From Thalassotalea sediminis (GTDB taxonomy: Bacteria > Pseudomonadota > Gammaproteobacteria > Enterobacterales > Alteromonadaceae): a stretch of DNA of 64,000 bases. The notes under the pieces were generated by a model that did not search any database, was not told the origin of the DNA, and was given only the letters and a program-made list of their open reading frames with translations. The stretch is taken from contig NZ_AP027361.1 in the NCBI RefSeq assembly GCF_030295915.1, positions 3,162,001-3,226,000 of the forward strand, written 5' to 3'. Positions 11,457-35,286 of this stretch are shown piece after piece. Positions within the stretch are counted from its first letter, which is position 1. The number at the start of each line of letters is the position of its first letter. Position numbers and translations under genes: made by a program.

Positions 11457-11599
11457 TCCAAATACAAAATAGGTAATGCTATTTAATATAGGCTTAACAT
11501 CATCAAAGTGTTATTAATAAATCGGTTTTTAATGCAACATATTCGGCGTACTGATGTTAATATCTACGTCACCTTTAATAACTTAACTTACTTGACAGT
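11457..11599. promoter_or_regulatory. Divergent promoter region with 9-bp inverted repeat
   Basis: This 143-nt AT-rich region separates the sugar operon from its presumed regulator. TTAACATCA at 11494-11502 and TGATGTTAA at 11552-11560 form a perfect 9-bp inverted repeat with 49 nt between, a plausible pair of half-sites for the AraC-family protein. No convincing -35/-10 pair was assigned. Confidence 0.35.
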
Positions 11600-12325
11600 A
11601 TGAGTGTTGATAGATCCTTGCTTGCGCAAATAGATACCTTACAGCTAATAAAGATGTTCGATCTTTTACCCGATATTTTGTTTTGGATTAAAAACGATAA
11701 GCATCAATTTATATATGCAAATAAAGCTTTTATTGCACATCAACGAGTAAAATCGATTGAGCAAGTTGTTGGGAAAACAGACTATCATTTTGCCCCCGCT
11801 CATATAGCAAAACAGTTCATTCGTGATGATGCAAAAATTCTATCCGGTGAAAGTGTTACCGAAAGGCTCGAAATGAACATTAATCTTTCTGGAAATATGG
11901 CTTGGTATAGTACAACAAAAAGACCTTTGTATGATAAATCAGGAGCGATTGTCGGCTCTTATGGCATTACAAGGCACTTGGCAAAACAAGCGATGGTACT
12001 AACAGGACTAGAGGCAATAAAAGTGCCTGTAGATTTCATAAAAGAAAACTATCATCGAGAATTATCTATAGAAACACTCGCTAGTGTTGCGCATCTATCT
12101 GTAAGTGCACTAGAGCGGCGGTTTAAAAAATATTTAAAGAAAACACCAAAGCAATTTATCAATGATTTGCGATTAGAAAAAGCGAGACAATTACTCGTTG
12201 AAACAACAACACCTATCGCCGAGGTTGCAGAAAAAGCAGGTTTTAGTGATCACAGTTATTTCAGTAAAAAGTTTAAACAGCTATTCGGTGAGCTCCCCTC
12301 TCAATTTCGCGATAATTACCAATAA
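11600..12325 (+). CDS. AraC-family transcriptional regulator with N-terminal PAS domain
   Basis: 241 residues. Residues about 18-120 form a PAS-type sensor domain (FDLLPDILFWIKNDKHQFIYANKAF, then PLYDKSGAIVGSYGITRHL). Residues about 140-240 form the double helix-turn-helix of the AraC family (LSIETLASVAHLSVSALERRFKKYL and IAEVAEKAGFSDHSYFSKKFKQLFG, ending PSQFR). AraC proteins with a PAS input rather than a cupin are a minority type. It is divergently transcribed from the sugar-oxidation operon, 143 nt away, which makes that operon its most likely target and a sugar or derived metabolite its likely signal. Family is certain; target is inferred. Confidence 0.9.
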   Translation: MSVDRSLLAQIDTLQLIKMFDLLPDILFWIKNDKHQFIYANKAFIAHQRVKSIEQVVGKTDYHFAPAHIAKQFIRDDAKILSGESVTERLEMNINLSGNMAWYSTTKRPLYDKSGAIVGSYGITRHLAKQAMVLTGLEAIKVPVDFIKENYHRELSIETLASVAHLSVSALERRFKKYLKKTPKQFINDLRLEKARQLLVETTTPIAEVAEKAGFSDHSYFSKKFKQLFGELPSQFRDNYQ

Positions 12326-12335
12326 TTACAACGCC

Positions 12336-12373
12336 AAATAGCTTGTTTAAAAACCATATACAGCGAGCTATTT
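12336..12373. terminator. Possible bidirectional terminator hairpin
   Basis: AAATAGCT (12336-12343) and AGCTATTT (12366-12373) form an 8-bp stem with a 22-nt loop between the convergent ends of the AraC gene and the 110-aa gene. A T run follows on the plus side. The loop is long, so this is a weak call. Confidence 0.3.
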
Positions 12374-12700
12374 TACTAGCTTTAATACATTACTTACTGG
12401 TGGTTGATATGTTGGGATATCGACTTGCGCATTGACCATAGACGACTGCTTAAATCGATCGAAGTTGGCGTTAGTTACGCCTAATTGTGAACAAAACTCT
12501 TTAAATGTTCTAAAATCATCACGGGTAAACGCTTCATTTTCTCGGGTAAGTAATCCATCAAAATAAGCATTATCGCCATTTAGTGTAAGTGACGCGATAG
12601 CACTATAGGGATCGCCATAATTGTCAACGCGTAGTGCCCTTACGGCTTTTATTTCGAATATCCAGTTGTTGTGATGTACATATCTCGGCATTGTTTTCAT
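12368..12700 (-). CDS. Conserved-looking hypothetical protein, 110 aa
   Basis: I do not recognise this protein. It is soluble-looking, with no signal peptide or membrane segment. It begins MKTMPRYVHHNNWIFEIKAVRALRV, contains a region alternating charged and aromatic residues (DDFRTFKEFCSQLG), and ends with a Pro-rich tail (PTYQPPVSNVLKLVK). The start is supported by AGGT shortly before the ATG. It is convergent with the PAS-AraC gene; its last codons overlap a hairpin that may serve both transcripts. Codon use resembles the neighbours. It appears to be a real monocistronic gene of unknown function. Confidence 0.65.
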   Translation of the reverse strand: MKTMPRYVHHNNWIFEIKAVRALRVDNYGDPYSAIASLTLNGDNAYFDGLLTRENEAFTRDDFRTFKEFCSQLGVTNANFDRFKQSSMVNAQVDIPTYQPPVSNVLKLVK

Positions 12701-12890
12701 GTAAGTACCTATTTCAAAATGAAAAAAGCCGACTGAGGGTTGGGAAGACAGCCGACATAAACAACGGAAGCATAAGGGCTGCTGATTGTTGATTCACTGT
12801 ACAGTTTGGCGCGACCAGAAAATATGCCAAAACTTTGATAAATCACGTTAACTTAGCAACAGCAAGCCTAAAATCAACAGCCCCTAATTC

Positions 12891-13211
12891 CTAGTTTTTA
12901 GCAGTTGCACCAACATAAGTTGCGAATTCATCTGCACTAATTGCTTGATCAGCGTTGCTATCAATATCATTGAAAGCTTTCAATAAACCAGTATCTAGAA
13001 CATTTTCGAGTTCTTTCTGACTTAATAATCCATTTTTATCGCTGTCATTCGTTTTCAATAGTTGGTCGAACGTTACTTTTTTAGCAGACTTAGCTTCTTT
13101 AACTTTTTCAAGCTCAGGTTGCTTAGGTGCTTCGTTTGCATTGACTAAAAATGCTCCTGTAGTACAAAAAGCTACAACGGCACATACTTTTTTTAAACTA
13201 ACTGGTTCCAT
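12891..13211 (-). CDS. Secreted EF-hand calcium-binding protein
   Basis: 106 residues. A signal peptide covers about the first 25 residues (VCAVVAFCTTGAFLVNA), then a Lys/Glu-rich linker, then two canonical EF-hand loops of 12 residues: D56-E67 (DSDKNGLLSQKE) and D84-E95 (DSNADQAISADE), each with the terminal bidentate Glu. A calcium-binding role outside the cytoplasm is expected. The gene is divergent from the glrK-qseG-glrR operon. Upstream of it I find a -24/-12 type promoter (GG-N10-GC at 13273-13286, minus strand) and two GlrR-type elements, so it is a probable sigma-54/GlrR target. AAGGA precedes the ATG by about 7 nt. Confidence 0.85.
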   Translation of the reverse strand: MEPVSLKKVCAVVAFCTTGAFLVNANEAPKQPELEKVKEAKSAKKVTFDQLLKTNDSDKNGLLSQKELENVLDTGLLKAFNDIDSNADQAISADEFATYVGATAKN

Positions 13212-13272
13212 AAATTTTTCCTTTCTAAATATTATAATAAAAACGTGTTAGGGAATGTTCGTAACATCTAAT

Positions 13273-13288
13273 GCAATCAATGCACCAA
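13273..13288 (-). promoter_or_regulatory. Candidate sigma-54 (-24/-12) promoter for the EF-hand gene
   Basis: On the minus strand the sequence TTGGTGCATTGATTGCA has the invariant GG and GC dinucleotides exactly 10 nt apart. It matches the sigma-54 consensus TTGG at -24 and TTGCA at -12, but departs from it in the CACG part. It would start transcription near 13261, giving a leader of about 50 nt to the ATG at 13211. RpoN itself is encoded at 32115-33623. Confidence 0.6.
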
Positions 13289-13350
13289 GTTTATAACTAA
13301 TTGTATTTTATGGTTTATTTTAAAAAAAACATCTTAAACCCCATAAAAAC

Positions 13351-13368
13351 TGTTGCTAATTGGCGACA
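13351..13368. promoter_or_regulatory. Candidate GlrR (QseF) binding site, distal to glrK
   Basis: TGTT-N10-GACA differs by one base from the TGTC-N10-GACA element that GlrR binds upstream of its sigma-54 targets in enterobacteria. Its centre is roughly 100 bp upstream of the predicted transcription start of the EF-hand gene, a typical enhancer distance. Together with the second site it creates a 13-bp inverted repeat, AATTGGCGACAGT (13358-13370) and ACTGTCGCCAATT (13471-13483). Confidence 0.6.
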
Positions 13369-13472
13369 GTATAAAAAGACTAAATTATTTCTTACCGTAA
13401 CCATGACCTAGCAACCTCTTTTTTAAATAATAAAATCAAAAACTTAACAATTATCGTATAAGATTAAAAGAC

Positions 13473-13490
13473 TGTCGCCAATTGAAGACA
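13473..13490. promoter_or_regulatory. Candidate GlrR (QseF) binding site, proximal to glrK
   Basis: A perfect TGTC-N10-GACA element, the dyad recognised by GlrR. It lies about 80 bp before the glrK start codon and about 220 bp upstream of the EF-hand promoter, so it could serve autoregulation, activation of the EF-hand gene, or both. The rest of 13212-13571 is AT-rich and shows no additional gene. Confidence 0.65.
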
Positions 13491-13571
13491 GTATTGAATT
13501 CCTGAGGAAATACCGTAAAAATACGTACTGATTCGATAGTCATTATTTATATAAAAGTTAGGCGAGCTCCT

Positions 13572-15005
13572 TTGCGTTTTGCACTTCGAAATTTTTCAAT
13601 AAAACATTTAACCATCTTTGGCTTTACACTGGTTATTCTGCCACTCGTATTAACCTTATTGTACGGTAGCCAAAAGTTACGCCAACTTGCGGAGCAAAGT
13701 ACTTCGAGTATTGCTCGTGTTGCAACGACGGTTGCAAGCGATCGTCAACTCAGTACGTCCTTAAACCTATTACAGCGTTCAGCAAGCCAATATATTGTGT
13801 TAGAAGAAAAAGAGTTACTCGATCGTGTTTATAATCAGCAGCAACAAATAGATGTTTTATTAGAGCAGCATAAACAGCAAGCTTCTTCTGCGGCTATCAA
13901 TTTAATCAGTCAAAAACTACGACAAGAAGTTCAACAAACATTATCTATGATCACCGCAGTTGAAAAGCCAACCTTAGACGATTTACAAACTAGCTTTAAA
14001 TCGATGAACACCTTAAGTAGTGAGCTAGGTGCGCAGAATGAAGCACACATTCAACGCCAAGTTATTCAAGTGCAATCAAGTGCCAAAAACACGCAAAAGG
14101 TATTGCTAAATAGCGTATTTATCATTCCCATTAGCATTGTAATCGCCATTCTATTTTCATTAATGATTTTAAAGCCATTACAATCGCTGCAACGAAAAAT
14201 TCAACGATTAGAACAAGGCAAGTTTGATGATGAAATTCGCTTTTCAGGCGCAACTGAAGTACAAGATATCGCGAAAGCCCTCGAAAAAATGCGACTTAGG
14301 CTGCATACATTAGAACAACAAAAGTCGAGTTTTATACGACATATTTCACATGAATTAAAAACGCCACTGGCAGCCATTCGAGAAGGAACAGAATTACTGT
14401 ACGACAATAGCTTAGGCGAGTTAAATGACGGCCAACAAGAAGTAACGCAAATAATGCGCTCGAATGTGAATCGGCTACAAACATTAATCGAGGGGTTACT
14501 AGACTTCAATATCGTATTAGATTCAACAAGTTTGTTGACAGCTGAACCTGTGCGACTTGCCAACATCATTGAAGAATGCCTCACTGCTCGAAAATTAGAA
14601 CTTCAAGCGAACGCCATTTCGATTGACCTAAATTTACAAGAAATATCACTCACGACCAATAAACAACAACTTTCTGTTGTTATTGATAACTTACTTTCAA
14701 ATGCAATTAAGTATTCACCGAACAATGGTAAAATAGCCATCGAGGCATATGTGGAGTCTCAGCAATTAATTTGCACCATTACAGATCAAGGGCCGGGTAT
14801 AAACAAAGCCTTATCAAATAAAGTCTTTGATGCTTTTTATCAAGGACCTCCGCCAGAAAATGCACAAATTAGAAGCAGCGGTCTAGGGCTGACTATTGTC
14901 AAAGAGTTATTAAAACGACTAGATGGTAGTATTTTATTGAAAAATCAGTCAAAACAAAGCGGTTTAGTTGCGATTATTACCCTTAATAAATTGGACAATG
15001 AATAA
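13572..15005 (+). CDS. glrK: Sensor histidine kinase GlrK/QseE
   Basis: 477 residues, matching the family length. Two membrane segments (about residues 13-31 and 179-200) flank a coiled-coil-rich periplasmic helical region. A HAMP segment (KPLQSLQRKIQRLEQGKFDDEI), the phosphoacceptor H-box FIRHISHELKTPLAA (His near residue 260), and ATPase N and G boxes (DNLLSNAIKYSP, DQGPGIN, SSGLGLTIVKELL) follow. The start is a TTG preceded by AGGCGAG. It is the first gene of a three-gene operon with a qseG-like lipoprotein and the sigma-54-dependent regulator glrR, the standard order, which is the main support for naming it glrK. Confidence 0.9.
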   Translation: MRFALRNFSIKHLTIFGFTLVILPLVLTLLYGSQKLRQLAEQSTSSIARVATTVASDRQLSTSLNLLQRSASQYIVLEEKELLDRVYNQQQQIDVLLEQHKQQASSAAINLISQKLRQEVQQTLSMITAVEKPTLDDLQTSFKSMNTLSSELGAQNEAHIQRQVIQVQSSAKNTQKVLLNSVFIIPISIVIAILFSLMILKPLQSLQRKIQRLEQGKFDDEIRFSGATEVQDIAKALEKMRLRLHTLEQQKSSFIRHISHELKTPLAAIREGTELLYDNSLGELNDGQQEVTQIMRSNVNRLQTLIEGLLDFNIVLDSTSLLTAEPVRLANIIEECLTARKLELQANAISIDLNLQEISLTTNKQQLSVVIDNLLSNAIKYSPNNGKIAIEAYVESQQLICTITDQGPGINKALSNKVFDAFYQGPPPENAQIRSSGLGLTIVKELLKRLDGSILLKNQSKQSGLVAIITLNKLDNE

Positions 15006-15561
15006 CATGAACAAGGTACAACACAACAAAAGCCTTAACACGTATAAGCGAACGTCAATGAGTAAATGCATACTTATGGTGATTGTTATCAGTCTTTTTA
15101 GTGGTTGCAAAATTACGCCTTTTAGTGCGCAACCACAAACTTTTGCAAGCTATTATTTATGGATAAAATCTCTATCAACTGAAGCGTTAAAAGCAGAGTT
15201 ATCCATTATTAATCAGCAAACAGAAAACAGTGCATTTACAGATACCAAACGTGTAAAACTAGCGCTTTTATTTGCTTTACCTCGCATGCCGCAGCACAAC
15301 CCATATACGGCAAAGACACATTTAAATCAAATTGATAAGAGCTACTTTTCAGCTGATGATCTCGCCTTTGTCGAACTCTTATCAGAACAATTAAATCAGC
15401 AGATCATTGCGTTGAACCGAAACGTTTTAACCAATCAAAAGCTAGAGCGTATAACCGATAAAAATGTGCAGATTAACGAACAGGTTAAAAAGTTAACAAC
15501 ACAAATAAATCAGTTAAAAAGTATCGAACGAGACATTCAACCACAAGAGTTAAATCAATGA
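14998..15561 (+). CDS. qseG: QseG-like outer-membrane lipoprotein
   Basis: About 187 residues from an ATG that overlaps the glrK stop (ATGAATAA). A long basic N-region is followed by a hydrophobic signal and the lipobox LFSGC, after which the protein is mostly helical with a C-terminal coiled coil (NVQINEQVKKLTTQINQLKS). Sequence conservation with enterobacterial QseG is low. The assignment rests on being the lipoprotein between glrK and glrR, plus its size and topology. A later ATG (15058) would give a more standard lipoprotein signal. It may modulate the kinase from the envelope. The end overlaps glrR by 4 nt (ATGA). Confidence 0.75.
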   Translation: MNNMNKVQHNKSLNTYKRTSMSKCILMVIVISLFSGCKITPFSAQPQTFASYYLWIKSLSTEALKAELSIINQQTENSAFTDTKRVKLALLFALPRMPQHNPYTAKTHLNQIDKSYFSADDLAFVELLSEQLNQQIIALNRNVLTNQKLERITDKNVQINEQVKKLTTQINQLKSIERDIQPQELNQ

Positions 15562-16946
15562 GCAACACTTCTGATAACAAAGAAAAATTAAATGTTTTAG
15601 TGGTTGATGATGACCCAAGTTTATTACGATTAATAAGCATACGATTAAGTGCTGCGGGTTATAATGTGCATGCTGCGGACAATGGTAAAAAAGCCCTGAG
15701 TATTGTCGATAGTAACTCGATTCAACTTGTCATTAGCGATCTACGAATGGAAGGAATGGATGGCATGGCGTTGTTTGAAAAAATACGCACTATACAACCA
15801 AATTTGCCCGTAATTATTATGACAGCACATGGCACCATTCCCGATGCTATTCACGCAACGAAACAAGGCGTATTTAGCTTTCTGACAAAGCCTTTTGAAA
15901 GTCAAGAATTACTCGACACAGCAAAACAAGCTATTCATTTACAGCCTCACTCAGACAGCTACTTACAAGACGACGAGTCTAACCAATGGCGACAAAATAT
16001 CATTAGCCGAAGTGCAGTAATGTCATCGCTGTTACAACAAGCAAAGCAAGTTGCACAAAGTGATTTTAGTGTCTTAATCCATAGTGAGAGCGGCACAGGT
16101 AAAGAGCTTTTAGCACAAGCTATTCATCTAGCAAGTGAACGCAAAGACAATACCTTTACAGCAATAAATTGTGCGGCAATCCCAGAACAACTATTAGAAT
16201 CTGAGCTTTTTGGTCACAGAAAAGGCGCCTTTACTGGGGCAGAGCAAAACCATGTTGGTTTATTTGAGGCGTCTAATGGCGGTACGTTATTTTTAGACGA
16301 AGTTGGCGATATGCCAATGAACTTTCAAGTTAAGTTATTACGTGCTTTACAAGAACGAGAAATCCGTCCTGTAGGCAGCACAAGTTCAGTTAAGGTCGAT
16401 GTTAGGATTATCGCAGCAACACACCAAAATTTGCAGCAAGCAATCGTTAACAATGAATTTCGCGAAGATTTATATTATCGGTTAAATGTAGTAGAACTTG
16501 CACTTCCACCACTTGCAGAGCGCAGAGAAGATATTCCGTTACTGGCGACACATTTTCTAAATAAAAGTAAGGCAAGTACAAAACGTGAAATAAATGGTTT
16601 TACTAAAGAAGCAATGGAAGTACTGATCAGCGCACCTTGGCCGGGTAATATTAGACAGTTACAAAACGTGATTGAACATAGTGTTGCCCTAGCAACGGAG
16701 TCACTTATCAGTGATGCGCTAATTCGCAATGCCTTGAGAGACAGAACCTCTCAGTTGCCTTCTTTTCAAGAAGCACGAGAGCATTTTGAACGCGATTACT
16801 TATCTAAGTTACTAAAAATTACCGCAGGCAACGTATCTCAAGCAGCGCGTATTGCGCAACGAAATAGAACAGAATTCTACAAACTGTTGAATAAACATCA
16901 CTTAGATGCTGAGCAATACCGCAATGATTACGGAACACCAGAGTAA
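15558..16946 (+). CDS. glrR: Sigma-54-dependent response regulator GlrR/QseF
   Basis: 462 residues. An N-terminal receiver domain has the acidic cluster VVDDDP and phospho-acceptor Asp61 (VISDLRMEG). The central AAA+ domain has Walker A (SESGTGKE), the sigma-54 contact loop GAFTGA (about 225-230) and a Walker B region ([13 protein letters not shown]). The Fis-type helix-turn-helix is at the C-terminus ([21 protein letters not shown]). It is translationally coupled to the lipoprotein gene. Candidate binding sites with the GlrR dyad lie upstream of glrK. In E. coli this regulator activates the sRNA gene glmY with RpoN; here a divergent EF-hand gene is the nearest candidate target. Confidence 0.92.
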
Positions 16947-16960
16947 TAATCGTGTTCCGT
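16930..16960 (+). terminator. Hairpin overlapping the glrR stop codon
   Basis: ACGGAACAC (16930-16938) and GTGTTCCGT (16952-16960) form a 9-bp perfect stem with a 13-nt loop spanning the glrR stop codon. The tail CATTATTTC is only moderately T-rich. It lies between the convergent ends of glrR and the M20 gene. Confidence 0.5.
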
Positions 16961-16971
16961 CATTATTTCAA

Positions 16972-18294
16972 CTAAGACTTTTTCAGTACATCCAATAAAA
17001 TATTTACCGTTGCTTCAACCCCTTTTGTTACAGCAGGTTTTGGTGCAATCTTAAATAGCGGACTGTGATGACTAGGTACTTGAGGCCCACCTTGCTTAGC
17101 ACGTTCAAAATCTGCCTTAGGCGTTCCGCCGACAGTAAAGTAAACACTAGGTATAAAAGGTGTGGTCGTAAAAAAACCGAAATCTTCGGCTCCCATTCCT
17201 AGATTTACCGGCGGTACAAGAGCATCACTTCCCATTGTGGTTGTGATCACTGATTTGACACGTTGAGCAAGTTTCTTATCATTAAAGGTCGGCGGGAATG
17301 CAAACTCACTAACAGTGACTTCAGGTAACTTATCTTCAGGTAAACCTGCCGTTCTTGCGGTACCGATAGCTACACGCTCTATAGCAGTAAGTAACTGCTC
17401 ACGTACTCGAGGATTTAAACTTCTTACAGTCAATTGCAAATGGGCACGATCTGAAATAATGTTGTGCTTGGTACCTGCATGAAAAGCACCAACAGTGATA
17501 ACGCCTGCATCTCTTGGAGCAAGTTCACGGCTAACAATAGTTTGAAGGTTAGTAACTATTTGCGCACCAATAACTATTGGATCTTTACCTTTATGAGGAT
17601 AAGCACCATGTGCCCCTACGCCTTTAACAATAATATCAACAGTATCAGCTCCTGCGTAAGGTGAACCTTCATCGACAGTGATCTTCCCCGCTTCTACGCC
17701 AGAAGAAACGTGAAACGCAAAAGCGTAATCTGGCTGTCCAAAACGCTGCCAAATATTATCAGCCATCATAGCACTGGCGCCTGGCCCTTTTTCTTCTGCG
17801 GGTTGAGCAATCAACATCAATGTGCCTGACCATTCATCTCTGTTGTTTGACATATAACGGGCTGTACCAACCAAACTTGTTATGTGTACATCATGGCCAC
17901 ATGCATGCATAACACCAACTTCATTACCGTCCCAATCAGTAGTCTTCACAGTAGATGCCATTGGCAATCCAGATTGTTCTACAACCGGCAAACCATCCAT
18001 ATCTGCCCGCATCATAACTAATGGGCCGTCGCCATTTTCCATCAAGGCGACAATACCGGTACCACCAATTTTTTCATGAACCGTAAAGCCAGCGCTAGCG
18101 AGCTCCTTCGCAAGACGCTTAGCGGTTTTGAATTCCATTAACGAAAGTTCAGGGTTTCGATGAAAATGCTCCCACAATGCACCTAGATGTTGATTATAAT
18201 CTTGTTTAACATCATGACTTATTTGTTCAGTTTGACTTAGTGCTGCGCTTGAGACGAATAACATCCCTAGTACAACTGTAATTAGTGGTTTCAT
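16972..18294 (-). CDS. Secreted M20-family metallo-amidohydrolase
   Basis: About 440 residues with a signal peptide (MKPLITVVLGMLFVSSAALS). M20/amidohydrolase motifs are MRADMDGLPV, the His-containing GVMHACGHDVH, the catalytic-type Glu pair in AQPAEEKGPGA, and a distal metal-binding segment (NLGMGAEDFGFF). The inserted dimerisation domain carries GVGAHGAYPHKGKDPI. This group includes N-acyl amino-acid and peptide amidohydrolases. I chose the ATG at 18294, preceded by AAGGGG; an ATG at 18309 would add five residues. It is convergent with glrR and follows zapE on the same strand. Substrate unknown. Confidence 0.87.
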   Translation of the reverse strand: MKPLITVVLGMLFVSSAALSQTEQISHDVKQDYNQHLGALWEHFHRNPELSLMEFKTAKRLAKELASAGFTVHEKIGGTGIVALMENGDGPLVMMRADMDGLPVVEQSGLPMASTVKTTDWDGNEVGVMHACGHDVHITSLVGTARYMSNNRDEWSGTLMLIAQPAEEKGPGASAMMADNIWQRFGQPDYAFAFHVSSGVEAGKITVDEGSPYAGADTVDIIVKGVGAHGAYPHKGKDPIVIGAQIVTNLQTIVSRELAPRDAGVITVGAFHAGTKHNIISDRAHLQLTVRSLNPRVREQLLTAIERVAIGTARTAGLPEDKLPEVTVSEFAFPPTFNDKKLAQRVKSVITTTMGSDALVPPVNLGMGAEDFGFFTTTPFIPSVYFTVGGTPKADFERAKQGGPQVPSHHSPLFKIAPKPAVTKGVEATVNILLDVLKKS

Positions 18295-32114: not shown

Positions 32115-33623
32115 ATGCGCCCAAGTCTGCAACTCCGAATTGGACAACAACTTACAATGACGCCGCAACTCCAGCAGGCGATAAAGTTATTGCAGTTGTC
32201 CACCTTGGATCTACAACAAGAAATTCAAGAGGCATTAGAAAGTAATCCTTTATTAGAGGTGGACGAATCTGCTTCGTCTTCAGACGATAACCAACCCGAT
32301 AACTTAGAAGAAGCCTTTTCCGCAAAAACTAATGACGAGACAATAAATAATACTAGTGATGGCTCGGAAGATTCAACACCAACCGTTGATGAAATCAGCA
32401 CCACTGAAGCGATGGATAAATCAGACATTCCTGAAGAGCTTAATATTGATACGACTTGGGACGAAAGTTACAGTGCTGGTGTATCTAATACTGGTGCCGC
32501 CCCTGCCTCAGATGATTTTGTTTATCAAGGTGAAACCACAGACTCCATTCAAGATCATTTGCGTTGGCAAATGAAATTAACCCCATTTTCTGAAACCGAT
32601 GAAGCCATTGCAATGGCAATTATTGATGCCATTGACGACGCTGGATATTTAACGGTTACAACTGAAGAAATCCTAGAGTCTGTTGGCGTCGATGACGTTG
32701 AATTAGATGAAGTAGAAGCGGTCTTAAAACGTATAAATATGTTTGACCCTATAGGTGTTGGTGCGCGTTCAATTGCAGAATGTTTAACGATACAGTTAAA
32801 CCAGTTTGATAAAGATACCCCTTGGGTTAACGAAAGTAAGATCGTGATTAATGAATATATTGATTTACTTGGTAACCGTGATTATCGACAAATCATGCGT
32901 AAAACACGTTTAAAAGAAGATCAATTACGTGAAGTTATTCGGTTAATTCAATCATTAGATCCTCGCCCTGGTGATTCTGTTATTCAAAGTGATGATCAGT
33001 ATGTAATACCTGATGTTTCTGTTGAAAAGAAAAATGGTCGTTGGGTTGTAGAGCTAAACCCTGATACTGCGCCTAAACTAGCGGTTAACCAGCAATATGC
33101 TTCTATGGCTCGGTCAATGAAAAATTCGAATGATAGTCAATTTATTCGTTCAAATTTACAAGAAGCAAAATGGTTTATTAAGAGTTTAGAAAGCCGAAAC
33201 GATACCCTATTAAAAGTATCAAACTGCATTGTGCAAAGACAACAAGGTTTTTTTGAACATGGGCCCGAAGCTATGCGTCCTATGGTTCTGAATGATATTG
33301 CCGAAGCAGTAGATATGCATGAATCAACGATTTCACGTGTTACTACACAAAAATATATGCATACACCACGTGGAATTTTTGAACTTAAGTATTTTTTCTC
33401 CAGCCATGTCAGTACAGAAAATGGTGGAGAATGTTCTTCAACAGCTATACGCGCTTTAATTAAAAAGCTTGTAGCTGCCGAAGTACCTGCAAAGCCTCTT
33501 AGTGACAGTAAAATGGCTGAACTATTGGCTGAACAGGGAATCAATGTTGCCAGACGGACTATAGCTAAGTATCGAGAATCGCTAAGTATTCCTCCGTCTA
33601 ACCAACGTAAAAGTTTACTTTAA
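32115..33623 (+). CDS. rpoN: RNA polymerase sigma-54 factor RpoN
   Basis: 502 residues. The glutamine-rich region I ([31 protein letters not shown]) contacts activators. Then come an acidic region II (about 50-130), the core-binding domain, the -24/-12 HTH, and the C-terminal RpoN box [15 protein letters not shown]. It directs transcription from GG-N10-GC promoters and requires activators such as GlrR, encoded in this same window. A candidate sigma-54 promoter occurs at 13273-13288. Confidence 0.97.
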
Positions 33624-34431: not shown

Positions 34432-35286
34432 ATGAAACTTACCATTGTAAGTGGCCGCTCCGGCTCTGGAAAAACGGTCGCATTGCGCGTTTTGGAAGAC
34501 TTAGGCTACTACTGTGTAGATAATATTCCCGTTAATTTGCTACCCGCATTGACGCATACCGTGATCAATGATTATGAAACCGTAGCGGTAAGTTTAGACG
34601 TCAGGAATTTACCTGCAGAACCGACAGATGTGCCAGAAATATTAGATTACTTACCCAGTGCTGTTGAGTTATCTATTGTATACCTAGACGCTGATGATGG
34701 TGATCTTATTAAGCGTTTTAGCGAAACTCGTCGCTTACACCCACTTATACGCCAAAATATCGCGCTAGACCAAGCAATGACACTTGAGAAAAAGTTATTA
34801 GAACCCATTGCTGCTCGCGCCAACTTGTATATTAATACCAGTCAGTTAACACCACACCAGCTCGCTGATTTGATCAGAGAAAGAGTGCTAGGGAAAAAAA
34901 GTGGTTCTATGGTCGTGGTGTTTGAATCCTTTGGTTTTAAACATGGATTACCAAAAGACGCTGACTTTGTGTTCGATGCTCGTTTCTTACCAAACCCTTT
35001 TTGGGAGAAAGAACTTAAGCCATTTACAGGGTTAGATCAACCAGTTAGAGATTTTCTTGCCAGCCAACCCATTGTTACTAAGTTTATATGGCAAATAAAC
35101 AGCTTCATGATGACATGGTTGCCTCACCTTGAACGAAATAATCGCAGCTATATTACCATTGCGGTAGGCTGTACTGGCGGAAAACATCGTTCCGTTTATA
35201 TTGCTGAATTACTTGCTGCAAATTTAAAAAAAGAAAGAAAAGACGTACAGGCACGCCACCGTGACTTAAAAGTACCAACAACATAA
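34432..35286 (+). CDS. rapZ: RNase adapter protein RapZ
   Basis: 284 residues. Walker A GRSGSGKT is at residues 8-15. The family segments VDNIPVNLLP, TRRLHPL, FESFGFKHGLPKDADFVFDARFLPNP and the C-terminal GCTGGKHRSVYIAE are intact. RapZ guides RNase E to the GlmZ sRNA and senses glucosamine-6-phosphate in enterobacteria. In E. coli the GlrKR system, also present here, controls glmY in the same circuit. No glmY or glmZ is visible in this window. Confidence 0.96.
   Translation: MKLTIVSGRSGSGKTVALRVLEDLGYYCVDNIPVNLLPALTHTVINDYETVAVSLDVRNLPAEPTDVPEILDYLPSAVELSIVYLDADDGDLIKRFSETRRLHPLIRQNIALDQAMTLEKKLLEPIAARANLYINTSQLTPHQLADLIRERVLGKKSGSMVVVFESFGFKHGLPKDADFVFDARFLPNPFWEKELKPFTGLDQPVRDFLASQPIVTKFIWQINSFMMTWLPHLERNNRSYITIAVGCTGGKHRSVYIAELLAANLKKERKDVQARHRDLKVPTT

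Follow-up and report, generated by a model that had tools for sequence, protein, structure and literature searches.

A predicted GlrR- and sigma-54-dependent promoter of a small EF-hand protein gene beside glrK in Thalassotalea sediminis and its relatives

Work on the GlrKR two-component system has mostly dealt with GlmY and rpoE of enterobacteria. In the accessible text of PMC6075780 the motif of the response regulator GlrR is given as TGTN12ACA, with three sites upstream of glmY, and in that of PMC4987338 as TGTC(N)10GACA. The GlrKR-glmY circuit of Enterobacteriaceae, as presented in the former source, shares with the locus described here the two-component system, the gene order, the upstream activating site motif and a sigma-54 promoter beside glrK. 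However, our locus encodes, instead of the sRNA GlmY, an EF-hand protein whose N-terminus is signal-like, the gene of this protein is divergent from glrK, and the two activating sites lie about 121-122 bp apart, whereas the corresponding spacings in glmY are 33 and 63 bp.

By design, the nearest circuit is ZraP-ZraSR. ZraP is a metal-binding periplasmic protein whose divergent gene is under sigma-54 control, and the ZraSR kinase operon also has a sigma-54 promoter (PMC4987338, available part). A sigma-54 response regulator adjoining a divergent gene for a metal-binding-type protein is likewise predicted from the sequence here. In contrast to ZraP-ZraSR, the protein is of the EF-hand type, the site motif is another one, and paired divergent promoters were not found, the kinase gene being approached by a sigma-54 module in 0/28 of the closest loci. 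In Caulobacter, the periplasmic EF-hand protein CaBP is placed under a neighbouring envelope-stress regulator, SigV, in the accessible portion of PMC13171946. That regulator is an ECF sigma factor, unlike the two-component sigma-54 activator considered here, and CaBP is a different protein (133 aa, three EF-hands).

A Bradyrhizobium RpoN study (PMC13207237) reports a downregulated EF-hand gene, with no mention of GlrR in its available part, and the available part of a catalogue of QseF-like activators (PMC3162934) does not contain the word EF-hand. Among the matches listed for the open-access literature, titles and abstract beginnings report no link from GlrR, QseF or sigma-54 to an EF-hand protein, and no open-access paper was found that names QseF together with EF-hand.

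Genes and sites of the Thalassotalea locus

The window is the whole stretch of T. sediminis DNA that was analysed, 64,000 nucleotides long (contig NZ_AP027361.1, positions 3,162,001 to 3,226,000). Its relevant features are as follows, in window coordinates.

12368..12700, minus strand: orf110, an open reading frame, the next gene behind the EF-hand gene; it adjoins the slot beside glrK in relatives
12891..13211, minus strand: gene of a small EF-hand protein (106 aa; Pfam matches, two canonical-looking loops, signal-like N-terminal segment)
13272..13288, minus strand: sigma-54 (-24/-12) element TTGGTGCATTGATTGCA, pointing at the EF-hand gene
13349..13370, no strand: predicted proximal GlrR-type upstream activating site, core TGTTGCTAATTGGCGACA at 13351-13368, by matrix scores
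13471..13492, no strand: predicted distal GlrR-type upstream activating site, core TGTCGCCAATTGAAGACA at 13473-13490, by matrix scores
13572..15005, plus strand: glrK (qseE), sensor kinase, by gene order as in E. coli and similarity to Colwellia GlrK
15007..15561, plus strand: qseG-like lipoprotein gene, with start and LFSGC lipobox assigned by eye
15558..16946, plus strand: glrR (qseF), sigma-54 response regulator, by Pfam, NCBIfam and identity to E. coli GlrR
32115..33623, plus strand: rpoN (sigma-54), by a Sigma54_DBD match

The order glrK-qseG-glrR, with the lipoprotein gene in the middle, is that of E. coli. The middle gene has no Pfam match and has counterparts at the same position in three Colwellia loci. 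Among named organisms, the closest GlrK loci detected are likewise from Colwellia species (44-46% identity), in a comparison from which entries for very close genomes are possibly missing. By its Pfam domains (receiver, sigma-54 AAA+ domain and GlrR-like DNA-binding end) the regulator belongs to GlrR. An alignment of 445 columns with E. coli GlrR gives 56% identity and includes a shared C-terminal segment of 10 residues; GlrR is also its best NCBIfam model, at 631 bits, below the cut-off of 763. The genome search found Sigma54_DBD at rpoN and nowhere else. Within the rpoN cluster, positions 34432-35286 hold a gene which, by the start of its sequence, is probably RapZ-like; RapZ is known for GlmY and GlmZ.

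The EF-hand gene, divergent from glrK, starts with an ATG at 13211. Its product matches PF00036 (29.6 bits) and PF13405 (28.2 bits), both over cut-off, and the loop residues, judged by eye, would fit Ca2+ binding; the signal-like segment is called by a crude rule only. The structure model is poor (pLDDT 49), and a sequence search of the PDB returned generic EF-hand matches only. Identification as XopAW or lanmodulin was rejected, as these NCBIfam matches were far under cut-off and were taken as generic EF-hand similarity. The gene is followed, after about 190 nt, by orf110, which has no Pfam or PHROGs match and a moderate, beta-rich AlphaFold model (pLDDT 64.8). No terminator was found between 12300 and 13700, and sigma-70 promoter hits in the same interval were at chance level.

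A sequence-only reading of this region had reported two dyads, TGTT-N10-GACA (13351-13368) and TGTC-N10-GACA (13473-13490), and a minus-strand GG-N10-GC element directed to the EF-hand gene with a leader of about 50 nt, all of which are present as described. The GG lies at 13286-13285 and the GC at 13274-13273; transcription would start at about 13261, with a predicted leader of about 51 nt. Both sites extend outward into near-palindromes (CTGT...ACAG). The proximal one is 81 bp from the TGG, counted from its core start, and about 80 bp lie between the end of the distal one and the glrK start. The sigma-54 element is among the weaker ones, with three mismatches in the -24 block and a score of 9.7 on a matrix that was built from the general sigma-54 consensus. 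A separate segment before glrK, ATACCGTAAAAATACGTACT (13510-13529), is identical in both same-genus relatives and conserved above its surroundings; perhaps it is the glrK promoter or another site.

The bare motif TGTC-N10-GACA was rejected as evidence, its frequency being no better than chance (18 window hits with at most one mismatch, 18.2 expected). Twenty-three exact sites occur in the genome. A full-motif matrix, trained partly on the two window sites, gives these 31.9 (proximal) and 30.2 bits (distal), the next window site 15.5 and the other 22 exact genome sites at most 11.2. An independent matrix was derived from 28 regular-expression sites (a few of which may not be real) in 10 loci of E. 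coli and others, all with GlmY by Rfam; the loci to which it was applied contributed no site to it. On this GlmY-locus matrix the window sites score 23.6 (proximal) and 22.6 bits (distal), followed by an intragenic site at 19.4. When the window was cut into 254 tiles of 500 bp, both strands being considered, a site and a sigma-54 element in the right order occurred in two: the EF-hand promoter region and one intragenic place at 57.3 kb. With GlrR-type sites upstream of a -24/-12 element, the region would by its sequence be classed as a GlrR/sigma-54 target promoter. A GlmY-like RNA in the slot behind this promoter was rejected, since Rfam gave no GlmY match in window positions 11500-17500 or in locus L001, while 10/10 reference loci matched.

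Conservation, spacing and reach of the promoter module

At a threshold of 1e-130, 69 of the 98 family genomes have GlrR. The family loci were grouped by GlrR identity (at least 70%, 60-68%, 50-57%), and family f9 of the same order was added. Sites scoring above 99% of shuffles on the GlmY-locus matrix were present in 28/28, 7/7, 24/33 and 5/5 loci of these groups, respectively. A site followed by a sigma-54 element, hereafter the module, was directed toward the EF-hand gene in all 28 genomes with GlrR at or above 70%, the window genome included, compared with 1/1120 shuffles, and toward glrK in none of the 28 loci. In the 50-57% group the co-oriented module occurred in 20/33 loci against 3/660 shuffles, and 11/33 loci had the module in neither direction. 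It was also present in three named Colwellia loci (63 of 80 named-relative loci were examined). The conservation check proposed for the dyads and the GG-N10-GC element thus came out in their favour: both are kept in all 28 closest genomes, helically phased.

The distance from the proximal site start to the TGG, measured in the 62 loci with a module from the four groups, takes only the values 68-71, 80-82, 90-93, 102-104 or 112-113 bp, i.e., classes spaced by about one DNA turn. For a period of 10.5 bp, the 62 loci give a concentration of R = 0.876. For one locus per genus (n = 37) it is R = 0.873, which was reached by 0/100000 uniform draws, p-values for the spacing being inexact because the genera are mutually related. 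With five classes about one helical turn apart, it is hard to account for the distances unless the bound activator touches the polymerase. The distances in GlmY loci (102, 106-107, 116, 134-136 bp) do not make such a tight rule visible there. As to paired sites, those of the at-least-70% group are 111, 119-122, 133 or 142 bp apart, roughly half a turn off.

An EF-hand gene adjoins glrK in 52 of the 68 examinable family genomes; G096, whose contig ends inside glrK, was kept out of this count, and no EF-hand gene lies near glrK in G055. An EF-hand open reading frame is situated no more than 1050 bp upstream of glrK in 28/28 (at least 70%), 0/7 (60-68%) and 24/32 (50-57%) loci, and in 0/63 control stretches inside glrK. 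It is divergent from glrK in all 28 loci of the first group and co-oriented in 22 of the 24 loci of the last one, like E. coli glmY. Tandem EF-hand genes, up to four, were observed in the slots of five loci (L007, L014, L028, L030, L031). Where the EF-hand gene is lacking, the slot often holds another small protein predicted to be exported or membrane-bound: 5/7 loci of the 60-68% group have a small, mostly Lys/Glu-rich protein with a signal-like start behind the promoter; in the 50-57% group, six loci encode there a protein of 58-66 aa that has a single hydrophobic segment. No clear slot candidate was seen in the non-EF-hand loci L034, L036, L040, L063 and L241. The slot of GlmY loci is taken by the sRNA.

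EF-hand genes away from glrK probably belong to the same regulon. A second EF-hand gene of the window genome, EF2 (894.2 kb, signal-like start), is preceded by paired sites at 893.86 and 893.93 kb, which score 22.5 and 14.9 bits and are separated by 66 bp. A comparison of five EF2 loci from three genera, the window genome among them, showed in every one a pair of sites with a separation of 65-66 bp, together with a TGGCA-type element. From 30 of 50 match rows loci were obtained, and 5 of these 30 lay beside glrK and were left out; the module was present in 19 of the remaining 25 dispersed EF-hand loci (12 of 14 genera) and absent in six. Controls gave 2/1000 shuffles and 0/146 control stretches. 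The distances (82, 92-93, 102-103, 112-113) all fall within the glrK-locus classes; in one locus a weaker element is present in addition, at 120. All five dispersed loci from genomes of the 60-68% group have the module; the slot of these genomes is without an EF-hand gene or, in G096, lies beyond the contig end. Another small EF-hand frame of the window genome, without a signal segment, has neither the site nor the sigma-54 element. In most dispersed loci with paired sites the two are separated by 65-66 bp. Many dispersed and co-oriented EF-hand promoters of several genera (L131-L158, L039-L066) read TGGCAY-N5-TTGAT or TTGTA, with GA or GT in place of the -12 GC.

The EF-hand family search of the window genome is not exhaustive, since the slot gene itself was absent from its output. 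Genome-wide pattern searches were discarded: a stricter dyad found 20 palindromic places, fewer than its reversed control (29), and dyad plus sigma-54 patterns gave 27 hits against 20 and 56 against 30. A further dyad (19.2 bits, L124) was rejected because it lies inside a gene. Ranking of genome sites by matrix score places the slot and EF2 sites at the top. The next two sites score 15.7 and 14.3 on the GlmY-locus matrix, close to the EF2 proximal site (16.4), so that more GlrR targets are possible.

In a survey of the class, 67 of 274 genomes gave a GlrR match at 1e-115, a threshold at which some matches may not be true GlrR. Outside the family 60 of the 67 match rows were covered, and glrK with some upstream DNA was available in 45. 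For loci outside the order, sites were found in 12/45 (5/450 shuffles) and the module in 8/45 (0/450 shuffles), at 82, 92, 93, 94, 102, 104 or 114 bp. Four of the 45 have an EF-hand gene at glrK (L262, L263, L268, L275). Three of these carry the module at 92-94 bp. L263 has a site only, at 161 bp, a position close to that of the distal sites in the former three (158-160). In a Chromatiales MAG, glrK is preceded by two EF-hand genes, and a site is accompanied by an element at 71 bp. Such loci being few, the EF-hand link exists beyond the order and is not general there. L304, likewise a locus from beyond the order, has a site beside glrK and, at 102 bp from it, a sigma-54 element; the gene to which this element leads encodes a protein of 227 aa that has a signal-like segment and lacks an EF-hand.

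Alternative readings, proposed regulation and its meaning

The palindromes could instead autoregulate glrK-qseG-glrR, the EF-hand gene merely sharing the intergenic space. They do sit between both genes, the distal one close to glrK, and in 22/32 loci of the group with 50-57% identity both genes share one strand, the EF-hand gene coming first, so that read-through could raise glrK. Nevertheless, autoregulation appears quite improbable, considering that no sigma-54 module faces glrK in the closest group, that the phasing is relative to the EF-hand promoter, and that the module recurs at dispersed EF-hand genes away from glrK; in addition, E. coli qseEGF is reported not to be autoregulated (PMC6075780, available part). 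Very improbable is the possibility that orf110 is the conserved target of the promoter and the EF-hand gene a passenger inserted between them. It derives from the presence of orf110 beside the slot in 22/28 loci of the at-least-70% group and from five f9 loci in which orf110 stands directly behind the phased sigma-54 promoter, with no EF-hand gene between. Against it, tblastn detected orf110 in 0/32 loci of the 50-57% group and in 0/25 dispersed EF-hand loci, many of which have the module, and about 190 nt lie between the two genes in the window.

Binding of the palindromes by a regulator other than GlrR can also be given very little probability. Dyads are used by other NtrC-type regulators too, but the sites are recognised by the matrix from GlmY loci, and the adjacent GlrR has the C-terminal segment of E. 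coli GlrR. Chance resemblance in AT-rich DNA, which would agree with the frequency of the bare motif, has practically no probability left, being contradicted by conservation and by the shuffle, control-stretch and spacing tests. The EF-hand gene is thus, with high probability, a direct GlrR/sigma-54 target within a family of EF-hand proteins predicted to be exported. Conservation, direction and spacing favour the earlier proposal that GlrKR controls the adjacent EF-hand gene and has an output other than GlmY. Its restriction to this organism proved too narrow: the arrangement holds here and also extends across genera, to dispersed EF-hand genes and to a few loci outside the order.

As for GlrR binding, activation, signal and protein export, we infer the following course. 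GlrK, with QseG, would phosphorylate GlrR, and GlrR~P would bind both palindromes between glrK and the EF-hand gene. From the proximal site, held on a fixed helix face, it could loop to sigma-54 RNA polymerase, and this contact would turn on the exported calcium-binding protein. The GlrR regulon of the family is probably small and made up of EF-hand proteins predicted to be exported, as a rule with one gene next to glrK and in some genomes with further ones at other places of the chromosome. As to the role of the protein, the likeliest, at the level of a guess, would be that of an envelope-stress output binding Ca2+ in the periplasm. By analogy with ZraP acting on ZraSR, it might, again as a guess, feed back on GlrK.

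It is possible, though somewhat doubtful, that exported small proteins, chiefly of the EF-hand type, were the original GlrKR output in gammaproteobacteria, that GlmY took the same slot in the enterobacterial line and that other lineages swapped in small Lys/Glu-rich or single-membrane-span proteins. In that case GlrKR would be an envelope system related to calcium or charge, and the slot protein would act back on GlrK.

With the EF-hand gene as a direct target, GlrKR, an envelope-sensing system best known for one sRNA, would acquire a new, testable job in marine relatives. A conserved protein regulon outside enterobacteria could serve as a direct read-out of GlrKR, and the defined promoter set with its strict spacing rule as a test bed for sigma-54 looping. 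The EF-hand regulon would tie GlrKR to calcium and the envelope, and the same promoter slot would serve an sRNA in one lineage and predicted exported proteins in others.
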